Assembly: GCA_903897145.1 (NCBI GenBank)
Contig: CAIUAN010000034.1
Span: 1-64,000 of the forward strand
Length of the DNA: 64,000 bases
Reading direction: 5' to 3'
Source of the DNA: an uncultured Bacteroidia bacterium
GTDB taxonomy: Bacteria; Bacteroidota; Bacteroidia; Bacteroidales; Prolixibacteraceae
In this document: positions 5,701 to 47,653 of the stretch, one piece after another
Layout of the letters: the number at the start of each line of letters is the position of its first letter
How positions within the stretch are numbered: position 1 is the stretch's first letter
The notes under the pieces: model-generated
Told to the model about the DNA's origin: nothing
Database searches by the model: none
What the model saw: only the letters and a program-made list of their open reading frames with translations
Made by a program: the position numbers and the translations under genes

Positions 5701-6204
5701 TTAGTCTACCAGGAGTTCATTTTCAAAGCCTTGCTGCAAAGCAACCATCTTAAGTGCTGTAACTGCTGCTTCATCCCCTTTATTTCCTAGTTTACCTCCA
5801 GCTCTGTCACTAGCTTGTTGTTGATTTTCTGTTGTTAAGACACCGAAAATAACGGGAAGGTTGTATTTTATATTTAGATCCGTAGCACCTTGAGCCACAC
5901 CTTGACAAATAAAATCAAAATGACGTGTTTCACCTTGAATCACGCATCCCAATAAGATCACAGCATCTACGTCGGTATACTCCGCAAAAAACTGACCACC
6001 TAAGGTTAATTCAAAACTGCCTGGAACATGTTTAATATGTATGTTTTCTTGCTTGACGCCATGTTTCACTAGTGTTTTAGATGCACCATCTGCCAATGCA
6101 CCAGTGATTTCATAATTCCATTCTGAAACTACAATACCAAATTTCATCGCATTCCCCTGAGGAACAGAATTCAGATCGTAAGTAGAAAGATTTACTGTAG
6201 CCAT
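5701..6204 (-). CDS. ribH: 6,7-dimethyl-8-ribityllumazine synthase
   Basis: A 167-residue lumazine synthase, the penultimate enzyme of riboflavin synthesis, condensing a ribityl-aminouracil with dihydroxybutanone phosphate. Family segments seen are [16 protein letters not shown] near the N-terminus, [32 protein letters not shown] (with the catalytic-region His) and [11 protein letters not shown]. The length is slightly above the bacterial norm because of a short N-terminal extension. No FMN riboswitch is seen upstream. It stands as a single gene between the catabolic operon and ywbE; a candidate promoter lies at 6224-6260. Confidence 0.95.
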
Positions 6205-6260: not shown

Positions 6261-6330
6261 GCTTGCTTAAGACCTTAACTTCTTGTGAATCTTAATCAAT
6301 ACGATTCGTTTATAGTCTTGCAAAAGTCTG

Positions 6331-6534
6331 TTATTTATTCTCAGACTTAATTTCCTTAACTCGACCAACTGCGCCATTTGTCAATCTGACTTTTATACCA
6401 TGCGGATGATGCGAACTGCTAGTCAGGATGTTCTGAACAATGCCAGTCGTTAGAGTTCCTGAACGCTGGTGCTCTTTTAGCACGATGCTTACAGCTTCTC
6501 CGAGCCTAATATTGCTTCTATCTCTTCCATCCAT
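6331..6534 (-). CDS. YwbE family small protein
   Basis: A 67-residue protein beginning MDGRDRSNIRLGEAVSIVLK and continuing with HQRSGTLTTGIVQNILT, then HPHGIKVRL and GRVKEI. This is the compact beta-rich pattern of the conserved YwbE family (DUF2196), whose function is not known to me. The whole family length is present. It is 127 bp upstream of ribH on the same strand and may be transcribed separately, because a ribH promoter candidate lies between them. Confidence 0.85.
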   Translation of the reverse strand: MDGRDRSNIRLGEAVSIVLKEHQRSGTLTTGIVQNILTSSSHHPHGIKVRLTNGAVGRVKEIKSENK

Positions 6535-6794
6535 AACTTAGCTAAAACTAATAATTATATCTCTTTTGGACAAGTGATTTTAAAGAATTGAGTAAAATAA
6601 ATAGATTGACGAACCCTATTCTTTAGAAATGAAGACATAATATAGGTCCAATTATTTTAATCTTGAGATTGTATTTATTATTCAAGGATAGTTTAAGATA
6701 ATTGAGAAATGAGAAATCAAATTAATAAAAAGCATATTGAGAATTTCAAAGGTGTGATAACCCACTTCTAATTGATTTTTAGTCAATCATACAT

Positions 6795-7865
6795 CTATTT
6801 AAAGCAAAATGAACCTGGAATAATGCCTGTTTTAAAGCTATCTAGTTTAGCTCCAAATGTTGAATACCGATAAATAACCCCTTGTTGCTGATAATCAATG
6901 GCATCACCGATATAAAGATCTGAATTTTGAGGGTCTACGCCTACCGTATAAAAAAGATGAGTTCCTAAATTTATAAATGGGCTATTGTTGATAGACTCCT
7001 GCAGTATCGGTTGCTTCCAAACCCCATTACTAAGATATACTAAGGTGTCTTTCGTTCCATTTATAGCTAATCGCGAGGGGGTGGCATCCGCAGATAAGGA
7101 AAAACTTTTTTCAATAATTCTGCTTGAGGTATTAATGCGCTGAAGCACCGGCGTTCTTTTTGAAGTCCCCGTTTTTGACCAGCCTCCATCACACAAGATC
7201 CATAGCTTATTTAACTTATCTAAAGCGAGGCCTGCCGGCTGAATTCCAACTTTAATGGAGTCAACTACTTGGTTTAATTTGGTGTCAATAACTAGAATTG
7301 TATTGTCAAACGACCAACAGCTCACGTAAAGCCGATCATTAATCTCAACCATATGCTCTGTAGATGGATGGCCAGGTGTCTTAATTGAACCCGTAATTTG
7401 ATAATTCTGTGGATTGAAAATTGTTATTTTTCCAGCATAAAGATCTGTTATATAGCCATTACCATTGTTTGAAAAGAAAATATTTCGGGGGGAGACTAAT
7501 CCCGTTATTTTCTGAACATATTTTCCAGTACGACTGTCTATCACATAAATTTTCCCCGAATTATTGATCACGATAAAACCTAAATTATTGTGTATAATCA
7601 TGGACTGAGCGACATCTCCAAGTGGAAGGCCATTGATTTTATAGAACAGGTCAAGTTGCACTTTTTTAGTTGCTGGATCATAGTAGGATAGGGAAGCGTT
7701 TCCATACATGAAATTTCCTTCATTCACGATAAACAAACCTTTGTTAGCCAAGGCAATAGATTGACTTCCAGTCCATGAGTCGTCTTTCATGCAACTAACA
7801 AGTGTAAATTGCAAGGCAATCAATAGTCCTGATATAAGTAGATAATACTTCATACTAAAAGTCAT
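6795..7865 (-). CDS. BtuG-like surface beta-propeller lipoprotein (YncE/DUF5074 type)
   Basis: The 356-residue product has a lipoprotein signal ending LQFTLVSC (lipid Cys near residue 26), with the more natural start at the fifth residue (MKYYLL). The rest is a string of propeller-like blades: FIVNEGNFMYGNASLSYYDP, then YVIDSRTGKYVQKI, FNPQNYQITGSIKT and LVIDTKLNQVVDSIKVG. In gut Bacteroides, BtuG is a surface propeller lipoprotein that captures B12 and caps BtuB. This gene is third in a cobalamin-riboswitch operon directly after a BtuB-like receptor, so that role is a strong inference here. Its start overlaps the receptor stop by up to 11 bp, indicating coupled translation. Confidence 0.78.
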   Translation of the reverse strand: MTFSMKYYLLISGLLIALQFTLVSCMKDDSWTGSQSIALANKGLFIVNEGNFMYGNASLSYYDPATKKVQLDLFYKINGLPLGDVAQSMIIHNNLGFIVINNSGKIYVIDSRTGKYVQKITGLVSPRNIFFSNNGNGYITDLYAGKITIFNPQNYQITGSIKTPGHPSTEHMVEINDRLYVSCWSFDNTILVIDTKLNQVVDSIKVGIQPAGLALDKLNKLWILCDGGWSKTGTSKRTPVLQRINTSSRIIEKSFSLSADATPSRLAINGTKDTLVYLSNGVWKQPILQESINNSPFINLGTHLFYTVGVDPQNSDLYIGDAIDYQQQGVIYRYSTFGAKLDSFKTGIIPGSFCFK

Positions 7866-9912
7866 AACGTATTAAAAACGAATAATTTATTCCAGGCATT
7901 GGATTTTGTAGAATAGTTCTGTAAGACTCATTAAAGAGGTTAAGGATTTTTAGTTCTACGTCTAATTTAGAGCGTTTGAAATTTATTCCTCGACCTAGAT
8001 AAATGTTATTCATCAAATAGGGATGTAAGGTTTCAAACGGGGATGTTTTCGTATTGCTTGTTGATGTATACCTTGAGCTATAATAGGTCCATACCCAAGT
8101 AAAATGATATTGTTTACGGGATAGATCGAACAAGATATTGGCCGAGTTTCTGGGGATATAGGGAAGCTGCTTTCCAATGGACTCATCAGCCCAGGATTTT
8201 GGATTATCTCGATTAATAGATCTGGTATACGCATAGTTACCATTTAGTCTGAATTGAATCGATTTTATTTTTCCACTTACACTGGTGTTAAATTCTAGAC
8301 CACTTGTATTAACCCTTTTTATATTGGAAGGTTCCCAGTACCCCTTTGGAGTTGGAAGCCAAATAATCCAATTGTTAATTCCTGATGCATAGGCTGAAAT
8401 GTTTGCGTTAAACTGAATTTGATTTAATGCACCTGAGAAGCCACTTCCTAGATCTATCATTGTTCCCTTTTCGGCCTTTAATAGTGGATTTCCTCCTGGA
8501 ACAAAATATAAATCATTTAAGCTAGGTAAATGGTAGTTTCTGGCTAAATTTCCATTTAAAAAGAAGCTTTTATTGGCCAAAGGATGATAGATTAAACCAG
8601 CTGAAGGGATGATTGGCAAGAAAGATTTTCCCACTAACTCAGTTCTAGAAATTAGTTTGCCGGTTAAGTTCTCATTGAAAATATTTACAAGTTGAACAGT
8701 TACCGAATGGTCTTGTCGCTTTGCATCGTACCCTTCGGTTTGACTGTTTTGTGGCGAATTAATAGAATTAACGCTTGAAAATACTTCATTCGCTGTTGTA
8801 GTTATGTTTAGATTTTCTTTGATCTTGAAATCGTAAGTGGCTATAAATAAGTATGATTCTACATTTGCAGTCGCATCTGTTATCAACTGATCAAGTGTAC
8901 CAGAGATTTTATTTTTTAATTGATAAGTCGAATGTTGCAGATTAGCTCCGGACTCAATGGTCAAGGTTCCTTTTGAGCCATAGTGCTTGTATTCGCCCAT
9001 AACTCTGTTGGCGTTCTCTTGCTGTCGATTTAAATTGTAGTTTATATTGGTTTCATTGGTTTGAAGACGTGGTAAACTTCGATCATTATACTGATACCAA
9101 TATCGAAAAGTCAAAAAACTTTGTTGAGAAGGATGCAAATAAAATTCTTGCAAGACCCCTTTACTTCCATATTGAGCATTTAAATTTTTCTGGGAAGGAT
9201 AGATATAGTTACCTGTAAGCGGGTCAATATTTGCAATTAACTTATTTTTAAAGGTATAGTCATTATCAGAAAAGCTATAGAAAGCTCTTGTTTGGGATTG
9301 GACTTTGGTATTTCCTAAACTAAGTTTGATAAACTCGTCTTTAGTTCCATAGCTTCCAATGCCAGTTAAGATCTGACCGGAGAATTTATTTTGCCAATCA
9401 CCCTTATTTTCAATCTTTACAAGTCCGCCTAAGGCTCCACTCTGATCAACTAAGGAGGCTGATCCATGCTCCACCGTTATTTGATCACTAAAGTAAACTG
9501 GTATTGTAGAGAAATCCACCATTCCAAGCATCGGCGAGTTTAAAGGAATTCCATTCCACAAAACGGAGGTGTGCGAAGGAGCAGTTCCTCGAAATGAGGC
9601 TGTTGTCATCGCACCGCGTCCATATTCCTTTATGTAGATTGAAGTATTCTGCGTTACTAACTCTGCAAGGCTAGATGTTAACGATTTAATCATGGATAAT
9701 GAGTCGATTGCATGAGTCCTTCCATCGTTATAGACTGTTTGAGTCGATCGTGAAATGATTGAGATTGGCTTAATCTGATGAGTGTCTGACAAGTTTTGTG
9801 TATACCCAGTATTTAGGAGTAGAATGAAGCAAATAATGGAGTATAATAGCGTTGCGAACCTCTTTTTAGCCTTCGATCTGCGCATCATTTGCTTAATTCG
9901 CTGGGTAATCAA
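7855..9912 (-). CDS. BtuB-like TonB-dependent outer-membrane receptor, predicted cobalamin importer
   Basis: A 685-residue TonB-dependent receptor. A basic N-terminus and hydrophobic stretch (LLYSIICFILLLNTG) form the signal peptide. The plug domain follows, with SFRGTAPSHTSVLWNGIPL and ITVEHGSASLVDQSGALGG. The remaining 500 residues are barrel strands ending in the aromatic terminus INYSFLIRYDF expected for BAM recognition. Internal Mets at residues 9 and 10 would start just after the upstream gene's stop and may be the real starts; the longest reading overlaps by 20 bp. The upstream cobalamin riboswitch and a BtuG-like neighbour indicate B12 or a related corrinoid as substrate. Confidence 0.85.
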   Translation of the reverse strand: MITQRIKQMMRRSKAKKRFATLLYSIICFILLLNTGYTQNLSDTHQIKPISIISRSTQTVYNDGRTHAIDSLSMIKSLTSSLAELVTQNTSIYIKEYGRGAMTTASFRGTAPSHTSVLWNGIPLNSPMLGMVDFSTIPVYFSDQITVEHGSASLVDQSGALGGLVKIENKGDWQNKFSGQILTGIGSYGTKDEFIKLSLGNTKVQSQTRAFYSFSDNDYTFKNKLIANIDPLTGNYIYPSQKNLNAQYGSKGVLQEFYLHPSQQSFLTFRYWYQYNDRSLPRLQTNETNINYNLNRQQENANRVMGEYKHYGSKGTLTIESGANLQHSTYQLKNKISGTLDQLITDATANVESYLFIATYDFKIKENLNITTTANEVFSSVNSINSPQNSQTEGYDAKRQDHSVTVQLVNIFNENLTGKLISRTELVGKSFLPIIPSAGLIYHPLANKSFFLNGNLARNYHLPSLNDLYFVPGGNPLLKAEKGTMIDLGSGFSGALNQIQFNANISAYASGINNWIIWLPTPKGYWEPSNIKRVNTSGLEFNTSVSGKIKSIQFRLNGNYAYTRSINRDNPKSWADESIGKQLPYIPRNSANILFDLSRKQYHFTWVWTYYSSRYTSTSNTKTSPFETLHPYLMNNIYLGRGINFKRSKLDVELKILNLFNESYRTILQNPMPGINYSFLIRYDF

Positions 9913-11050
9913 TCAAAGAGAGGTCTACAGCTCCACTGACTTCAGTCGATATTTCGTTTAACCATCCAGCTATCTGAAAAACACCACTTTGTACTTTAAT
10001 AAATGAAATATTCGTAACGGTCACTGAATGTCCATTTTTATCAACACAATCCGAAAGATCAAATAGATTAGCTTTCAGCGCAGCGTTGTAATCTAAATTC
10101 GAGTAACATTCTCCATAACCAAATGAAAACAAACCTGCTCGCAAAGCCCAATTCTCTTGACCAGAGTTATTTGAAGTATTTTGATAGGCATTTGGTAATT
10201 TTTCACCTGTAAATACGACCTCTGCTTTAGTCCCATAACCGCTCCACCACCACGAAGTTGAGCCAAACCCAGGAATGAGTTCACCATGGTGACCTAGGTT
10301 GTCGTTCCAAGTGACATTCCCATTTATTGTTGGTTTTAAGTATGTTACTTGATAGTTGTGTATAGTTTCTGGGTTGCTATACTCACTTCCCTTGATCTCA
10401 AGCCAATCACCATCATTGGGGATTCCGTCATTGTTAACATCACTCATGACAGATATAACGGCTGGCTCAGAACCTGGTCCTGGCTGGGTAAAGACTCCAA
10501 AATCTTTTCCTGTGGTATTGTTTATAGGATGATCAAATCCAGCAATGATATAGCCACCCCAGCCTCCAAGCGAAGTATATATTTTTGAACCAGTCCAAGG
10601 TTGCCCGATGAAATCCGAGCCATTCCAATCCGCAGAAATGATAGAGGCATGCTGACCAGGTCCATATTTGTAATCAAAGACCTTGGTTATATAGGGAGAG
10701 AAGTTTGAAAAGGCTTTAATAGAGATGGTTTTGAAATCTGATCCTATTTGATTTGATACTTTAAGTTGAATATCGTAATTACCTATTTTTGAAGGATTAA
10801 AGTTTAATATTTTATCCAACGAAACTACATTTCCATTCAGAGTCCATGTATAACTTGAGTGGTTGTCATTAACGATTAAAGGGGTAATAGGAATTGATTT
10901 TCCAACCTCGACTTTGAACCCATCAATAGGTACATTAATGGATATAATGGGTCCTGTGATTTTATCTGCATGACTGCACGATAAAACAAATATGACAATA
11001 TATACAGGCCATAAAGCCTGATATTTAGAATAAAACATACTTAAAATCAA
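9893..11050 (-). CDS. Surface lipoprotein with PKD-like domain, B12-regulated
   Basis: The 385-residue product has a lipoprotein signal (IVIFVLSC, lipid Cys near residue 25). An Ig/PKD-like domain follows (about 35-115, with YTWTLNGNVV and GNYDIQLKVSNQIG). A C-terminal domain contains GGWGGYIIAGFDHPI, SDVNNDGIPNDGDWLEIKGS and a Trp/Gly-rich SWWWSGYG segment. The aspartate-rich loop resembles calcium-binding loops. The architecture matches the PKD_3-type Bacteroidota cell-surface proteins often found near BtuB-like receptors (recalled). It is the first gene after the cobalamin riboswitch, so a role in surface corrinoid binding is plausible but unproven. The exact biochemical function is unknown to me. 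Confidence 0.72.
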   Translation of the reverse strand: MILSMFYSKYQALWPVYIVIFVLSCSHADKITGPIISINVPIDGFKVEVGKSIPITPLIVNDNHSSYTWTLNGNVVSLDKILNFNPSKIGNYDIQLKVSNQIGSDFKTISIKAFSNFSPYITKVFDYKYGPGQHASIISADWNGSDFIGQPWTGSKIYTSLGGWGGYIIAGFDHPINNTTGKDFGVFTQPGPGSEPAVISVMSDVNNDGIPNDGDWLEIKGSEYSNPETIHNYQVTYLKPTINGNVTWNDNLGHHGELIPGFGSTSWWWSGYGTKAEVVFTGEKLPNAYQNTSNNSGQENWALRAGLFSFGYGECYSNLDYNAALKANLFDLSDCVDKNGHSVTVTNISFIKVQSGVFQIAGWLNEISTEVSGAVDLSLIDYPAN

Positions 11051-11139
11051 ATAATTAATAACTATTAATTGATTTTAAGCTAATGGGAAGTATTGCAGAA
11101 TGGAAAAATCGGCCATCTGTACGCTTTTGTCCCGAAAGC

Positions 11140-11330
11140 TTAAACCGTGAATGGCTGGTCTTCTGACTTATCCCGATTTCTAATCACCTTCCCATCCCTA
11201 TTTGAGGTAAGAATAGTGGTATTTGACTAGAAACATACTATTCCGCATTTGCGGAATCGGGTTTTACAGCAGCGGGAACTGTTCCGGATTTACACCGGAT
11301 TCCCAAATTAAGCCCCTAAAGGCACCAATT
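11140..11330 (-). promoter_or_regulatory. Cobalamin (B12) riboswitch
   Basis: Read on the minus strand, the region begins GGTGCC (11326-11321), continues GGGAATCCGGTGTAAATCCGG, then CCCGCTGCTG (11276-11267), a perfect TTCCGC/GCGGAA hairpin (11256-11241), GGGAAGGTGATTAG, and ends with GTCAGAAGACCAGCC at about 11167-11153. These are the conserved blocks of the adenosylcobalamin riboswitch, including the core and the B12-box equivalent. It sits in the leader of the PKD lipoprotein, BtuB-like and BtuG-like genes, about 90 bases before the first start codon. Cobalamin binding normally represses such operons. Confidence 0.96.
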
Positions 11331-11335
11331 CATCA

Positions 11336-11365
11336 CAAAAATAAGTAAATCATTCTAGCGTCAAA
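11336..11365 (-). promoter_or_regulatory. Promoter of the B12 uptake operon
   Basis: On the minus strand TTTG (11365-11362) is separated by 18 bases from TATTTTTG (11343-11336), an exact match to the Bacteroidota TTTG-N-TAnnTTTG pattern. Predicted transcription start is about 11330, exactly where the riboswitch begins, which supports both calls. Confidence 0.75.
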
Positions 11366-11399: not shown

Positions 11400-12143
11400 C
11401 TAATCAACCGTGTTACGCGCATGTATGTGGCTAAGGTTATAGATAACAGCTATATAAAGATAGCTTTTTCTTGAATTACCGGCTGGATTGTAGATGGTAT
11501 CGCTAAGTCGACCAAATGAAAGTGTGGCATTGTGATTCATTTGAAGTCCAGCACCAGTAAACAACCTATTTTTCTCGATTTTGATCCCATCTAAAGGAAT
11601 ATAAAGCTCATTGTTACAGGAAAGAAAGAATCGACTGGGTTTTTTAGGGTCTTGATTCAGATTCGCCATAAACCCGATTCGAAAGCGAAATCTATTCTGA
11701 TATCCATCAGAAAGAAAACGTTGCTCTAGACGGCCTCTGTGCTCAAAACTAAAACGATCATAGGAATGTTTAACGTTTAGCTCCTCCCAAGTTCGAAACT
11801 CATTTCTTGATTTCTGTACATCAAATAGAGTGCCGCTATCGCACGTATGGAAAAGTCCCGAGCCTATTGCCGTGGCGAGGTTTGATCGAATGGCATAATA
11901 GACCGTTTCTTTGACCTCATAATAATCGTATTTTAAATTGAAATCAGCGCTTTTAAAATGATTTTCTTGTATCATCGACCACTTCTCATTAAACTTACTC
12001 TTGAAAATAAGGGCATTCCAATTTCCAAGCCCAGTTTCTGAGCGGGCCTCCTGGCACGAAAAGGCAATCATCCAAGGGAGTATCAGTAATCTAAATAGGA
12101 CTTTAATAGGCAAGGGTGCTGAATGAAATTTTCGAAAGTCCAA
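11400..12143 (-). CDS. DUF2490 outer-membrane family protein
   Basis: A 247-residue protein with a hydrophobic export signal (VLFRLLILPWMIAFSC) and a body of short amphipathic strands: LGNWNALIFKSKF near the start, FSFEHRGRLEQRFL, YQNRFRFRIGFMANL, and a final YLYIAVIYNLSH strand. This is the DUF2490 pattern, predicted to form a small outer-membrane beta barrel of unknown role. The gene ends 35 bp before the B12 operon promoter and is not under the riboswitch, because the riboswitch lies downstream of it on the same strand. A Cys at the end of the hydrophobic stretch could make it a lipoprotein, but this is uncertain. Confidence 0.75.
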   Translation of the reverse strand: MDFRKFHSAPLPIKVLFRLLILPWMIAFSCQEARSETGLGNWNALIFKSKFNEKWSMIQENHFKSADFNLKYDYYEVKETVYYAIRSNLATAIGSGLFHTCDSGTLFDVQKSRNEFRTWEELNVKHSYDRFSFEHRGRLEQRFLSDGYQNRFRFRIGFMANLNQDPKKPSRFFLSCNNELYIPLDGIKIEKNRLFTGAGLQMNHNATLSFGRLSDTIYNPAGNSRKSYLYIAVIYNLSHIHARNTVD

Positions 12144-46687: not shown

Positions 46688-47653
46688 TTAATAATCTTCA
46701 TTGTGTAAAATATTGTATTGATCATAGGCTTCCACAATATCTTTTACTAATCGATGTCGAACGATATCGCTCTTATCAAAATGAATGGTTGAAATTCCTT
46801 CAACACCTTGAAGTATTTTTAAGGCGAGGATTAAACCAGAATGCTGCTTACGCGGCAAGTCAATTTGAGTCACATCACCAGTGATAATATATTTTGTATT
46901 TAACCCCATTCGGGTTAAGAACATTTTAAGTTGTGGAATGGTTGTGTTTTGTGCTTCATCAAGGATAACAAAGGCATTGCTTAGCGTTCTTCCGCGCATA
47001 AAAGCTAAAGGTGCAATTTGAATGACGCCATCTTTAAGGTATTCCTCTAATTTCTTTGGTGGAATCATGTCCAATAGCGCGTCATAAATAGGCTGAAGAT
47101 AAGGATCGATCTTCTCTTTTAAGTCGCCTGGTAAAAATCCAAGATTTTCCCCCGCTTCAACGGCCGGTCTGCTGACGATGATTCGTTTGATTGTTCTATT
47201 TTTAAGTGCGCCAATGGCTAAGGCAATTGCAACATAGGTTTTCCCTGTGCCTGCAGGTCCAATTGCAAAGACTAGGTCATCTTTTTTTGCACCGTCAACA
47301 AGCTTTTGCTGATTTTGGGTTCTGGGACGAATCGGCTTACCATTATTTGCAAAGACCAAAACATCACTTGCATTCAACAGACTTTGTTCAATCGAGTTGA
47401 TATCGTCCATCATGATCTGATGAATAGTCTCATCAGATAAGGCGTTAAAATGATAGTAATGTTCAATGATCAGTTGAAACTTACGGATAAACTCACCGAC
47501 TTCCAATTCCTCGCCTTTAACTTTAATCGTGTGACCCCGAGCCACCACAAGAATTTTGGGACAATACGATTTAATCAACTCCATTTTGGAGCTTCTAACA
47601 CCGTAAAATTCGGTGGGTTCTATCCCTTCTAACGAAAAAGTATGCTCGATCAT
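46688..47653 (-). CDS. PhoH-family ATPase
   Basis: A 321-residue P-loop protein with Walker A in AIGPAGTGKTYVAIALAIG, Walker B in AFVILDEAQNTTIPQLKMFL, and RIIVSRPAVEAGENLGFLPGDL between. An N-terminal KH-like region (LGVRSSKMELIKS-like, then GHTIKVKGEELEVGEF) is present, as in PhoH/YbeZ. YbeZ acts with the RNase YbeY in rRNA maturation; ybeY is not adjacent here. It precedes purC. Confidence 0.9.
   Translation of the reverse strand: MIEHTFSLEGIEPTEFYGVRSSKMELIKSYCPKILVVARGHTIKVKGEELEVGEFIRKFQLIIEHYYHFNALSDETIHQIMMDDINSIEQSLLNASDVLVFANNGKPIRPRTQNQQKLVDGAKKDDLVFAIGPAGTGKTYVAIALAIGALKNRTIKRIIVSRPAVEAGENLGFLPGDLKEKIDPYLQPIYDALLDMIPPKKLEEYLKDGVIQIAPLAFMRGRTLSNAFVILDEAQNTTIPQLKMFLTRMGLNTKYIITGDVTQIDLPRKQHSGLILALKILQGVEGISTIHFDKSDIVRHRLVKDIVEAYDQYNILHNEDY

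Follow-up and report, generated by a model that had tools for sequence, protein, structure and literature searches.

A probable Prolixibacteraceae cobamide-uptake operon and the altered predicted pocket of its BtuH homologue

An operon for BtuH, BtuB and BtuG homologues

The stretch of DNA analysed here (hereafter the window; 64,000 nucleotides of contig CAIUAN010000034.1, from an uncultured bacterium that is probably a member of the Prolixibacteraceae) contains, downstream of a cobalamin riboswitch, three closely spaced minus-strand genes in the order BtuH, BtuB, BtuG. The first encodes a BtuH-like lipoprotein (9893..11038; 381 aa; the listed open reading frame begins with TTG at 11050 and gives a 385-aa frame), the second a BtuB-like TonB-dependent receptor (7855..9885; 676 aa; listed frame beginning with TTG at 9912) and the third a BtuG-like propeller lipoprotein (6795..7865; 356 aa). 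Taking the ATG at 9885 as the BtuB start, 7 nt separate the BtuH stop from the BtuB start, and the BtuG start overlaps the BtuB end by 11 nt, as expected for a single transcript. The system is an ordinary one that carries an unusual variant of its binder, BtuH.

Homology and structure prediction agree in assigning the first gene to the BtuH family. A phmmer comparison of its protein with solved structures gave matches to 7biz_A (BtuH2 of Bacteroides thetaiotaomicron, BT_1956; E 3.4e-39) and to 8blw_B (BtuGH, that is BtuG1, BT_1490, of the same species; E 9.3e-27). An AlphaFold2 model (mean pLDDT 86.2, pTM 0.83, from an alignment of 45 sequences) had 7biz as its top Foldseek match (6.9e-29) and superposed on residues 315-592 of 7biz_A with Z 31.1, at 2.1 Å over 249 residues with 32% identity; the corresponding Z for BtuGH, in which BtuG and BtuH are fused rather than encoded by separate genes as in the window, was 28.5. 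Below these two BtuH chains the next structure rows (Z 12.6 and 10.6) align with the protein's PKD part, as do, among the structure matches listed, most other non-BtuH rows. An account of the BtuH family published in 2022 gives a crystal structure with bound B12 and a phenotype in vivo, and reports that BtuH2 is a membrane-associated lipoprotein that is needed at low B12, binds B12 through its C-terminal domain and has N-terminal Ig-like PKD domains (PMC8941943; here and below, statements from PMC8941943, PMC10404256, PMC12751083 and PMC13398666 refer to the available excerpts of these papers). From the two structure matches, the modelled fold and this description we conclude that the first gene encodes a BtuH homologue. 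It resembles BtuH2 in its C-terminal domain fold, N-terminal PKD part, lipoprotein signal (by eye, lipobox-like ...FVLSC-SHADK) and locus, which likewise has a cobalamin riboswitch, btuB and btuG, and differs in having one PKD domain found rather than three and in being first in its operon.

The domain arrangement places the predicted B12-binding site outside the PKD part. A PKD_3 domain (PF16820; Pfam E 4.7e-13) occupies residues 34-100 of the 385-aa frame (10751..10951), and the B12-binding domain, placed by alignment to 7biz_A 315-592, occupies residues 112-374 (9917..10705), so the predicted binder is the C-terminal part of about 265 residues. The PKD match is absent from all seven members of genus g186 in the clade of relatives defined below, in which the B12 domain is present; it is found in four other clade members tested (L178, L181, L188, L192). 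The PKD part therefore appears dispensable and is probably a spacer. An earlier note, made from the window's sequence, had called the first gene an uncharacterised PKD-like lipoprotein that might bind corrinoids. The suggestion of a further, likely corrinoid-binding lipoprotein is supported by the BtuH homology and predicted fold, and the PKD part it had singled out is the wrong domain. The protein looks uncharacterised because Pfam names only its PKD-type domain, and NCBIfam names nothing on it; that it belongs to an undescribed family is nonetheless highly improbable, given the strength of the BtuH2 match in both sequence and structure and the published account of that family. An initially expected identity as a DUF4465 protein was ruled out, as the protein has no PF14717 match at E up to 1; BtuH and the DUF4465-type BtuJ are treated as separate proteins in PMC12751083.

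The second and third genes encode, by sequence, orthodox, near-canonical BtuB and BtuG. The receptor matches BtuB2 (8bmx_C, E 8.4e-117) and BtuB3 (8p97_A, 2.2e-109) and, far more weakly, BtuB1 (3e-25); it has the plug, barrel and EL8 segment of BtuB2 and BtuB3, and its EL8 region (window NNWIIWLPTPKGYWEPSNIKRV) aligns gap-free. NCBIfam TonB-B12 matches it at 2.8e-26, under that model's cutoff. By hand count, the EL8 aromatic that is Tyr538 in BtuB3 is Trp in the window, as it is in BtuB1 (PMC10404256). The propeller protein matches BtuG2 (8bmx_D) with E 6.8e-99 over residues 22-356, has a lipobox-like signal by eye (...LVSC-MKDDS) and carries the only DUF5074 match in its genome (Pfam 3.1e-14). 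Thus the pair resembles BtuB2G2 and BtuB3G3 of B. thetaiotaomicron (8bmx, 8p97/8p98; PMC10404256): both partners are homologous over nearly their whole length, their genes are adjacent, and the EL8 segment with its aromatic is present. Among the BtuG2 pocket aromatics, which include Trp194, Tyr239, Trp272, Tyr316 and Tyr335 (PMC10404256), Trp194, Tyr316 and Tyr335 are identical in the window by hand count, Tyr239 is Trp, and Trp272 is Thr. As Trp272 of BtuG2 rotates to admit adenosylcobalamin (PMC10404256), the Thr in the window's BtuG (6795-7865) may mark a difference in upper-ligand handling. The earlier note's identification of a B12-uptake operon with BtuB and BtuG stands on these matches, and the contrast it drew with gut Bacteroides, a PKD protein instead of BtuG, fails, since BtuG is present and near-canonical and the PKD protein is additional to it. 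On the evidence of homology and modelling we hold with considerable confidence that this is a riboswitch-controlled cobamide-uptake operon with BtuH as a predicted cobamide binder.

A clade of BtuH proteins with altered contact positions

To compare the window's BtuH with its relatives at the ligand contacts we aligned 172 BtuH domains (166 after removal of six exact duplicates), taking the contact residues from PMC8941943. The polar ligand residues of BtuH2 named there are Q333, N399, H476, Y510, W511 and W577, of which Asn399 contacts the phosphate and His476 the corrin. The position of Asn399 is Asn in 134/166 domains, Gln in 28 and neither in four (two gaps, one Ala, one Gly), these four being deviating paralogues and the fusion protein L034. 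The 28 Gln-type domains come from the window, 16 other genomes of its genus, four of a second genus and seven of a third, and outside this clade Asn occupies the position in 134 of 138 rows. (BtuH matches were found in 17 of 18 listed genomes of the window's genus, the exception being 64% complete.) The position of His476 shows the same division: 123 of the 134 Asn-type rows have His here, and the 28 never do, having instead Gly (15), Asp (6), Ser (4), Glu (2) or Thr (1). In the window's BtuH, Q333, W511 and W577 are kept, N399 is Gln (Gln185; codon 10484..10486), H476 is Gly and Y510 is Asn. The Phe401 position is gapped or replaced in the clade. Four of the eight named contact positions, Gln333, Trp511, Trp577 and Leu578, are unchanged in 28/28.

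The differences extend beyond the named contacts. Nine positions are fixed in the clade for a different residue (BtuH2 numbers; 329 Pro to Tyr, 399 Asn to Gln, 409 Ile to Val, 481 Tyr to Trp, 482 Tyr to Trp, 485 Trp to Tyr, 522 Asp to Glu, 569 Thr to Ser and 579 Gly to Asn), giving an alternative set of Gln, WWW.GYG, GYAE[CT]Y or GYGECY, and Trp-Leu-Asn. The WWW motif is Trp263-265 in the window (codons 10244..10252), where 264 and 265 align with Tyr481-Tyr482, near the lost His476. Of the nine, eight are no more than 9 residues away from a named contact, as are 26 of the 65 eligible positions (permutation p 0.002); distance along the chain is only a proxy for closeness to the pocket.

The 28 domains appear to share a single origin. 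In a tree built without the contact columns, by a quick method with no bootstrap, they form one side of a branch with SH-aLRT 94 (99 with L034 added), and a single change between Asn and Gln suffices on the tree. G408 (L203), which lies outside the clade and has the window's gene order, has both Asn and His. The clade's proteins are under purifying selection: dN/dS is 0.056-0.110 for BtuH pairs above 75% identity (one pair was not computable), and between the window and L176 it is 0.075 for BtuH, 0.079 for BtuB and 0.130 for BtuG. Low dN/dS, together with retention in the same operon, indicates that the altered BtuH is a kept, selected protein. A decayed duplicate was rejected on the same low dN/dS and on the finding of one BtuH match per genome in all 28 clade genomes.

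The results suggest that the clade's pocket is a remodelled cobamide pocket, and we think that the clade's BtuH still binds a cobamide, with predicted contacts to the nucleotide loop and corrin side chains altered. A bolder reading, somewhat less likely than not, is that the Prolixibacteraceae have a class of BtuH whose pocket was rebuilt once at the nucleotide-loop side, with Asn399 changed to Gln, His476 lost, Trp-Trp-Trp formed, and Glu522 and Asn579 gained, and that the resulting surface B12 catcher would prefer other cobamides, or pass them on to BtuG faster, in keeping with those of lake and sediment communities. Several observations weigh against the clade's BtuH as a cobamide binder with altered contacts. 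Of the six polar contacts of BtuH2, N399 and H476 are lost and Y510 is Asn in 18/28, so that tight B12 binding cannot be read across from BtuH2. The clustering of fixed positions near contacts depends on the distance chosen, with p 0.37, 0.07 and 0.002 at 3, 6 and 9 residues.

The same contact positions bear on whether the clade's BtuH simply binds ordinary B12 as BtuH2 does, its Gln and Trp contacts being equivalent and the differences meaning little. The shared fold, operon and riboswitch and the four invariant contacts speak for this, as does variation at 401, 510 and 511 among BtuH rows outside the clade. At 510 and 511 such variation is common in the BtuH family, whereas loss of N399 is not, and unconstrained drift would hardly have fixed nine positions in 28/28. 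We regard equivalence to BtuH2 as a serious but somewhat doubtful possibility. Loss of the phosphate contact and of one corrin contact could alternatively mean that cobamide binding has been lost in the clade's BtuH, which instead helps to open the BtuBG lid, a role suggested for BtuH in PMC10404256, or binds another ligand, for example a different tetrapyrrole. This we consider unlikely: all 28 retain Gln333 and the pocket's aromatic side, dN/dS is low and, with a single BtuH match per genome throughout the clade, there is no canonical copy to take its place. Since the altered contacts lie partly on the nucleotide loop, a cobinamide specialist was also considered. CobS is needed to finish cobinamide; it was not found in the draft genome (97.28% complete), which disfavours such a specialist. 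As for contact with the receptor, a missing predicted BtuH-receptor interface would not be decisive, because in B. thetaiotaomicron immunoprecipitation of BtuB2 left BtuH2 unenriched, and that of BtuH2 gave no robust enrichment of BtuG2 (PMC8941943).

BtuH operons outside the gut

The operon type and its BtuH, BtuG and BtuB components are already known from gut Bacteroides (PMC8941943, PMC10404256, PMC12751083, PMC13398666). The BtuH survey in PMC8941943 used human gut species. BtuH from gut commensals is reported to give fitness under B12 limitation, and PMC8941943 poses the question why only some gut Bacteroidetes retain it. Searches of genome samples found BtuH matches in 75/140 genomes of the family, in 76/295 of an even sample of the order, some through the PKD part only, and in 26/395 of a class sample, many through the PKD part only; the two best class-sample matches outside the order (36-37% identity) have a pocket that is canonical by eye. 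The nearest relatives of the window's BtuH among the matches listed are from metagenome-assembled genomes named LacPavin (87%) and Loclat (85%), which we take to be lakes, and from a Mariniphaga metagenome-assembled genome (63%) that belongs to the window's genus and is placed by NCBI in the Prolixibacteraceae. Named relatives among the matches listed include Pedobacter, Chryseobacterium, Flavobacterium and Chitinophaga. BtuH is thus not only a gut protein. Among the matches listed in the open-access literature no paper was found on BtuH outside the gut or on variants of its pocket, and within that scope both BtuH operons outside the gut and the Prolixibacteraceae clade with its altered pocket are new. 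A clade of single origin with a fixed, different pocket, in relatives from outside the gut, offers a natural mutant series for the choice and release of captured cobamides; if the pocket was indeed rebuilt in the way suggested above, altered selectivity would go with this variant of BtuH.

BtuH neighbourhoods were compared in two sets that overlap in a few genomes: the 40 best-matching order-sample loci, and the best 80 of at least 576 confirmed named relatives, corresponding to 79 loci that include three members of the window's clade as well as gut loci. Near BtuH and on the same strand, BtuB occurs in 34/40 order-sample loci, BtuG in 34/40 and RF00174 in 33/40; for the best 79 named loci the counts are 68/79 for BtuB, 70/79 for BtuG and 75/79 for a B12 box (at most two mismatches). 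The commonest gene order is BtuB-BtuG-BtuH (22/40 and 52/79), and the window's order, BtuH-BtuB-BtuG, is found in 4/40 and 4/79. Among the 27 relatives in the window's clade that order occurs in 24, the other three stopping at contig ends in BtuB; BtuB adjoins BtuH in 27/27 and BtuG is present in 24/27. RF00174 was found in 22 of the 23 clade loci searched (the exception, L200, is truncated at a contig end), and a B12 box in 26/27.

Some relatives have unusual architectures. The fusion protein L034:5777-7822 (-) has 682 aa, comprising a BtuH domain, a DUF4465 domain and a Por secretion tail, and is apparently secreted; it combines two B12-binder domain types in one protein, its BtuH domain branches in the tree as sister to the window's clade, and it lies behind two cobalamin riboswitches (8773-9012, and 9559-9686, which is cut). 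Two Flavobacterium loci (L126:6950-10743 and L137:7001-10824) have three tandem BtuH-type frames each, of which two have lost most B12-contact residues and one is canonical. BtuH domains also occur in very large frames, at L063:1048-5277 (1410 aa), L098:11761-15198 (cut, at least 1146 aa) and L209:9320-16465 (2382 aa), in loci that also hold a BtuH of ordinary size.

Riboswitch, promoter and leader

The riboswitch aptamer (RF00174; 11136..11345 (-)) matches the whole model, positions 1-189, with 84 bits (cmscan E 3.2e-19), as compared with a Rfam gathering score of 31.5 bits, so that the complete cobalamin riboswitch reported earlier is confirmed; in a search of the window's own genome its E is 3.3e-21. 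It is the only RF00174 match above the gathering threshold in the window. A B12-box-like match at 47162 (at most two mismatches) was rejected, since as a riboswitch it does not exceed the Rfam threshold.

Just upstream of the aptamer lies an exact match (11336..11365 (-)) to TTTG at -33, N18 and TATTTTTG at -7, a pattern we take to be the Bacteroidota promoter consensus (TTTG-N18-TATTTTTG). The description of this promoter as ideal holds for its position. Its -7 element, TANNTTTG, is invariant in 14/14 aligned leaders; the -33 TTTG is less conserved. Statistically the description does not hold: across the 64-kb window the pattern was found three times as compared with 3.7 expected, which is not above chance, and we rejected the pattern as statistical evidence.

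Between aptamer and BtuH the leader contains a hairpin with an outer stem of 12 bp (11039..11080 (-)), a proposed expression platform, whose 3' end immediately precedes the BtuH AUG at 11038. The strand UUUAAGCUU (11136..11144 (-)), just 3' of the B12 box, is complementary to the 5' arm of this hairpin and is the proposed switching strand. The 131-nt leader stretch folds with z -2.2, 6/200 shuffles being equally stable. Both hairpin arms are present in 22 of the 27 clade leaders having a B12 box and are missing in L196, L197, L199, L201 and L202, all of one genus; L200 is cut. In 22/22 hairpin-bearing leaders TTTAAGCTT, complementary to the hairpin 5' arm, directly follows the aptamer. Because the arms are near-invariant, the hairpin shows little covariation. 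We infer that the UUUAAGCUU strand may pair with the 5' arm of the start-codon hairpin, and the simplest switch would be one of mutually exclusive pairing in which the hairpin closes the start codon when B12 is bound. Cobalamin riboswitches of B. thetaiotaomicron are described as proposed transcription terminators (PMC12751083), so the switch mode here may differ, or our reading of the hairpin may be wrong.

Cobamide uptake and use in the genome

The window's genome is a draft of 2.8 Mb in 69 contigs, 97.28% complete. A search for B12-binding domains in it found two proteins, MetH and the methylmalonyl-CoA mutase large subunit, both over their NCBIfam cutoffs; the mutase small subunit, under its cutoff, is encoded next to the large subunit (MutAB). 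CbiC and CobS were not found in this draft, the control searches being positive in 7 and 10 of 14 genomes, respectively, and the organism therefore probably depends on complete cobamides from outside. Contig C58 encodes together a Peripla_BP_2 protein, a FecCD permease whose best NCBIfam match is BtuC (195 bits, under the cutoff of 334) and an ABC ATPase whose best match is FecE, followed by a corrinoid-transporter ATPase, all under cutoff.

In the pathway that these genes suggest, low intracellular B12 would leave the riboswitch-controlled operon on; BtuH, as a surface lipoprotein, would capture cobamides through its C-terminal domain and feed the BtuG lid that caps the TonB-dependent transporter BtuB; from BtuB the cobamide would reach the periplasm; and a BtuF/C/D-like ABC transporter whose genes lie elsewhere would import it into the cell for MetH and methylmalonyl-CoA mutase. 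Binding of B12 to the aptamer may withhold UUUAAGCU, allowing the hairpin at the BtuH start codon to form and block expression. Two points weigh against this scheme. The C58 transporter has no adjoining cobalamin riboswitch and reaches no B12-specific cutoff, so that its assignment to cobamides follows from its family; and, the genome being a draft, absent genes may be missing sequence.

The genome has two cobalamin riboswitches. The second (C27:14772-14978) precedes a lone lipoprotein-like gene, L033:13780-14538 (-), with no transporter gene nearby. Its product is the only DUF4465 protein in the genome (PF14717 E 3.4e-49; 9fct, BtuJ1, E 1.4e-19), so the organism also has a member of the DUF4465/BtuJ lipoproteins (PMC12751083, PMC13398666), a different Pfam family (PF14717), to which the first gene of the window's operon has no match.

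The operon is flanked by a DUF2490 gene upstream (11400-12143) and a lumazine synthase gene downstream (5701-6204). Between 6200 and 11500, intrinsic-terminator-like sites (3 found, shuffle mean 3.5) and sigma-70-like sites (15 found, shuffle mean 18.7) are at chance level, and no terminator-like site is listed after BtuG. A short minus-strand frame downstream of BtuG (6300-6540) may encode a small protein resembling the YwbE type.

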